Positions 54,171 through 54,242 of a stretch of 64,000 nucleotides of DNA are shown in pieces. Both the position numbers and the translations under genes were made by a program. Source of the stretch: Salinibacter pepae. Lineage in GTDB: Bacteria; Bacteroidota; Rhodothermia; Rhodothermales; Salinibacteraceae. The first letter of the stretch is position 1, and the number at the start of each line of letters is the position of its first letter. Location of the stretch: positions 496,001 to 560,000 of the forward strand of contig NZ_CAMTTE010000001.1 in NCBI RefSeq assembly GCF_947077775.1, read 5' to 3'. The notes under the pieces are model-generated. The model made no database searches. It was not told the origin of the DNA and worked only from the letters and a program-made list of their open reading frames with translations.

Positions 54171-54242
54171 TAGCGGGGGCGGGATTCGAACCCGCGACCT
54201 TCAGGATATGAGCCTGATGAGCTACCACTGCTCCACCCCGCG
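54171..54242 (-). tRNA. tRNA-fMet (CAT), initiator, unusual anticodon stem
   Basis: 72-nt tRNA with anticodon CAT in loop CTCATAT. Initiator marks: C1 faces T72 (no Watson-Crick pair) and A11:T24 in the D-stem (GAGC/GCTC), reversed from elongators. However the anticodon stem reads TCAGG/CCTGA, so positions 29-31 are A-G-G rather than the usual G-G-G. CCA is not encoded. It is the last tRNA of the cluster, before the terminator. Confidence 0.88.

Follow-up and report, generated by a model that had tools for sequence, protein, structure and literature searches.

Probable replacement of the canonical initiator tRNA gene by a relocated A29:U41, U38 copy in Salinibacter

Can a bacterium rely on an initiator tRNA that departs from the three G:C pairs of the anticodon stem, and how would such a gene come to be there? 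The question is raised by a tRNA gene in the 64,000-nucleotide stretch of Salinibacter pepae DNA analysed here (the window). The three G:C pairs are highly conserved (PMC7949028) and are presented in teaching as an almost universal condition for entering the P site; the extent to which they can be relaxed and the need for compensation are still discussed, and AU/GC/GU initiators are described from mycoplasmas (PMC10568206). The original prediction saw in the A:U pair of the window tRNA, lying beside a very large IF-2, a possible case of relaxed or compensated initiation. Our analysis leads to a different reading: the gene is very probably a sole initiator that tolerates A29:U41, and a diverged, relocated copy that replaced the ancestral GGG gene. 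Initiators of the AU/GC/GC kind were already known; what is newly seen is the genus-level replacement of a canonical gene.

ARAGORN calls a tRNA-Met(CAT) at positions 54170-54242 of the window on the minus strand, and Rfam places an RF00005 match at 54171-54242 on the same strand (66.3 bits). The RNA reads, element by element, CGCGGGG-TG-GAGC-AGTGGTA-GCTC-A-TCAGG-CTCATAT-CCTGA-AGGTC-GCGGG-TTCGAAT-CCCGC-CCCCGCT-A-C. Its anticodon is CAU, as expected of an initiator, and both initiator marks claimed for it, C1 facing U72 and A11:U24, are found in the sequence and in the ARAGORN structure: C1 and U72 form no Watson-Crick pair and position 1 is left unpaired, and pair 11:24 is A:U because the D-stem at 10-13/22-25 reads GAGC/GCTC. 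The predicted anticodon stem, TCAGG/CCTGA in the DNA and UCAGG/CCUGA in the RNA, is also correct, with G:C at 30:40 and 31:39 and A:U at 29:41, so that the set of three G:C pairs at 29-31:39-41 is incomplete. Two further features lie beyond the original prediction: residue 38, in the anticodon loop CUCAUAU, is U where A is usual, and the D-loop has one base fewer than that of the related GGG gene. U38 may become pseudouridine through TruA. Position 73 is A, and the 3' CCA is not encoded.

In the window genome the initiator gene is the last member of a tRNA cluster on the minus strand, called by ARAGORN, which starts with tRNA-Tyr(GTA) at 54587..54671 and continues with tRNA-Gly(TCC) at 54452..54524 and tRNA-Thr(GGT) at 54361..54433. 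Directly 3' of the initiator gene stands a terminator-like hairpin (54121..54150, minus strand) with a 13-pair stem and a T-rich tail; the motif by itself is weak (1 found against a mean of 1.1 in shuffles), and its position and long stem fit. The hairpin is likely the end of the cluster transcript, and its place just 3' of the gene fits transcription of the initiator as last cluster member. The IF-2 frame proved not to be a neighbour of the tRNA: the only IF-2 motif in the window belongs to a reading frame of about 1,030 amino acids at 471..3581 (minus strand), some 50 kb away.

The window belongs to a 99.97%-complete assembly with a main contig of 3.585 Mb, in which 3 of the 45 tRNA matches carry a CAU anticodon. 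BLAST with the window gene returned no second initiator in this genome, and the window gene is the only one found there. Another Met(CAT) gene with G-G-G, which the original prediction had named as evidence against itself, did not turn up, and the prediction therefore stands on this point. The genome also holds fmt, encoding methionyl-tRNA formyltransferase, above cut-off. The window tRNA is thus predicted from its features to be the functional sole initiator, one that would undergo aminoacylation and formylation and enter the 30S P site in the normal way. As side observations on the tRNA set of the assembly, Ile(GAT), Ala(TGC), Leu(TAA) and Arg(TCT) tRNAs were not found among its tRNA matches; those for Ile and Ala probably lie in rRNA operons missing from the assembly, and those for Leu and Arg may contain introns. 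At G000:C1:2161287-2161360 (L044) lies a degenerate tRNA-like gene whose anticodon loop has six bases and which ARAGORN labels 'tRNA-???'.

The A29:U41 pair by itself is ordinary and very common in bacteria. A pattern scan of about 85,000 species genomes gave at least 120 matches; among the matches listed, most come from alphaproteobacteria (rhizobia, Rhodobacteraceae, sphingomonads and Pelagibacteraceae), with Bacteroidales, Verrucomicrobia, Planctomycetes, Chloroflexota and one Mycoplasmataceae MAG also represented. The 114 ARAGORN calls among these listed matches have GAGC at 10-13 in 112 cases, the remaining two having been called with a displaced or truncated 5' end, and C at position 1 in 99. 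The AU/GC/GC initiators of rhizobia, SAR11 and other groups thus resemble the window tRNA in the C1 mismatch, in A11:U24 and in having A29:U41/G30:C40/G31:C39 as their normal initiator stem. They differ from it in keeping A38, which accompanies A29:U41 in 118/118 pattern matches in the loci fetched, whereas the window tRNA has U38 and, unlike them, appears to have taken the place of a GGG gene at genus level. Given such widespread natural exceptions, the three G:C pairs at 29-31:39-41 would seem near-universal, yet not defining for bacterial initiators. Virus-encoded initiator-like tRNAs are also frequent (L259-L309, L332-L519), and G29:C41 occurs in just 34 of 120 sampled ones with A38, alongside 58 with A29:U41 and 27 with U:A. 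U38 initiator-like tRNAs were collected from 51 viral contigs, position 1 often being A or U; of the 80 records listed from a mixed viral sample, only about 2 had U38.

Within the same class the picture is uniform up to the border of the genus: among the genomes matched in a set of 117 from the class, all those outside the genus carry a G29:C41/A38 initiator. In the phylum, U38 occurs in only 6 of 394 genomes, four of this genus and two with extra copies. Separately, we observed two genomes of other genera in which the canonical initiator is accompanied by a further initiator-like tRNA that has U38 and a changed acceptor end (G054, L256; G080, L258); the extra copy of G054, a class member outside the genus, is of GGG/U38 type. 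For the genus we write V for the AGG/U38 type with the shorter D-loop and C for the GGG/A38 type, and G000 for the window genome. The V gene is present in 11 of the 13 genus genomes and is the only type in ten (G000, G147, G195, G408 and G413-G418, with G413, G414 and G415 being incomplete drafts); G340 and G401 have the C type only, and G325 has both, with one C and two V genes. In the S. ruber group, positions 29, 41 and 38 and a single D-loop base are all that distinguish the V gene from the C gene. The canonical initiator of G340, G401 and G325 shares its entire acceptor stem and T-arm with the window tRNA and departs from it in G29:C41, A38, a D-loop one base longer and a conserved site by a DUF1015 gene.

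That site marks the old location. The C gene adjoins the DUF1015 gene in G340 and G401, with recA nearby, and likewise in G325, and it adjoins the same gene in the outgroup genera G384 and G410. A locus query of the ten V-only genomes gave no initiator tRNA match at this site, its neighbours being present, and when G000 and G147 were aligned to G340, ordinary intergenic DNA lay where the C gene would be; alignment, ARAGORN and short-word BLAST yielded neither a tRNA nor a clear remnant of the native gene at the empty site. While the native gene keeps one site, the V gene occupies three in the genus: in the clade of the window genome it stands last in the Tyr-Gly-Thr cluster, in G325, G413 and G416 it has a lexA-like gene on one side and cysS on the other, and in G415 it adjoins a methyltransferase-like gene. 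In G340, G401, G325 and G416 the cluster reads Thr-Tyr-Gly-Thr, with no Met gene. A recA tree, rooted at the midpoint only, splits the genus into two well-supported halves, and unordered parsimony puts the minimum number of changes at one for V, at two for C and at two for the V site; these counts do not give the number of independent losses. We propose that a diverged copy with the AGG stem, U38 and the shorter D-loop arose from an ordinary GGG initiator within the genus or its immediate ancestor, that it settled at a new site, in the window genome the end of the Tyr-Gly-Thr cluster, and that the ancestral gene beside the DUF1015 gene would then have been lost. That this displacement of the single essential initiator gene took place in one genus, perhaps repeatedly, with no matching change in IF3 or the 16S P site, we regard as fairly probable.

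Both the identity of the gene and its source could be read otherwise. A misidentified elongator Met or Ile2 tRNA would share the CAU anticodon, but it would not be expected to show the C1xU72 mismatch and A11:U24 and at the same time to be nearly identical to the GGG initiator; moreover, the other two CAU tRNAs of the genome (L012 and L013) have a paired 1:72 (G:C and G:U) and C11:G24, the marks of elongator Met and Ile2, which would leave no other initiator. The chance of such a misreading is negligible: these features already refute it, we rejected it, and the original assignment as an initiator holds. Import of the AGG/U38 gene from a phage, a plasmid or a distant bacterium, with displacement of the native gene, would accord with the frequency of A29:U41 in viral initiator-like tRNAs, with the viral contigs that carry U38 and with the three sites taken by the V gene against one for the native gene. 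Against this, the acceptor stem and T-arm match those of the congeneric GGG gene, the genes tested on either side of the second site are of ordinary kinds (a lexA-like repressor, dsbD- and redoxin-like genes and cysS), and U38 is scarce in the mixed viral records. When 304 distinct initiator-like sequences are compared with the window tRNA, the closest ones outside the V type are GGG initiators from its own genus and family, and for this reason duplication, divergence and replacement are favoured over import, as far as 73 bases can indicate; import is unlikely. A phage origin, which U38 had suggested, was not kept as the leading idea, the mixed viral samples being overwhelmingly A38 and the nearest relatives being genes of the host family.

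The ribosome may accept the A:U pair as it stands; the rival reading, close to the suggestion of the original prediction, is that initiation in this lineage is relaxed, with compensating changes in IF3, 16S rRNA or IF-2 like those reported for mycoplasmas. Structures of the 70S ribosome show pair 30:40 contacted by A1339 (A-minor, type I) and pair 29:41 by G1338 (type II), in the second case via the 2'-OH of residue 41; A790 touches the backbone at 38 (PMC11497404). The strictest of the ribosomal contacts, that of A1339, would fall on G30:C40, retained in the window tRNA, and the G1338 contact, made mainly through the ribose 2'-OH of residue 41, would be largely indifferent to G:C versus A:U; tolerance of A29:U41 is expected because G30:C40 is kept and an A:U pair keeps this 2'-OH. 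Some cost is possible, since in E. coli initiators mutated in the 3GC pairs support initiation poorly in the presence of normal ones (PMC7949028 and PMC10568206). Consistent with relaxation, the predicted anticodon-arm stability is -3.9 kcal/mol with A:U against -6.0 with G:C, and Mycoplasma pneumoniae, with its AU/GC/GU initiator, has changes in IF3, uS9, uS13 and rRNA according to PMC10568206. The Mycoplasma initiator (Ayyub et al. 2018, as cited there) resembles the window tRNA in having A:U as the first of the three pairs and differs from it at 31:39, G:U in place of G:C.

The compensatory IF3 and rRNA changes that PMC10568206 gives for Mycoplasma were not seen in the genomes we compared, nor did IF3 and P-site rRNA there change along with the tRNA. 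IF3 is 88-100% identical across the 13 genus genomes, and none of its variable sites separates AGG-type from GGG-type genomes. The 16S motifs at 790, 926, 966, 1229, 1338-1341 and 1400 are alike in the V-only genome G195, the C-only genomes G340 and G401, and G325, which has both types, so that one AGG-only genome is set against two GGG-only genomes. Congeners served for this comparison because the 16S of the window assembly was found neither with RF00177, a search that likewise failed in 5 of 14 control genomes, nor by 16S motif. The IF3 start codon is the non-standard AUU or AUC in AGG-type and GGG-type genomes alike, and AGG initiators are normal in very many bacteria. There is no sign of special compensation in IF3 or in the 16S P-site motifs checked; with nothing in them following the initiator type, with A29:U41 so common and with IF-2 distant from the gene, relaxed or compensated initiation becomes quite improbable, more so than import. 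The IF3 frame of the window genome was itself seen to lack ATG, GTG or TTG at the proper start, which is AUU in G000, G147 and G408 and AUC in the other genus genomes; like the non-standard IF3 start of E. coli, this fits autoregulated initiation.

Close relatives that differ in initiator type and are alike in IF3 and the 16S P site offer a clean comparative system, in which an essential single-copy initiator gene appears replaceable by a diverged, relocated copy. If the replacement is real, the genus has carried out a natural experiment on the dispensability of the three G:C pairs and A38, and G325 is a species caught with both initiator types. Elsewhere in the window, positions 39779-46473 hold an AddAB-like pair, a UvrD helicase with a PD-(D/E)XK nuclease domain adjoining a second PD-(D/E)XK protein.
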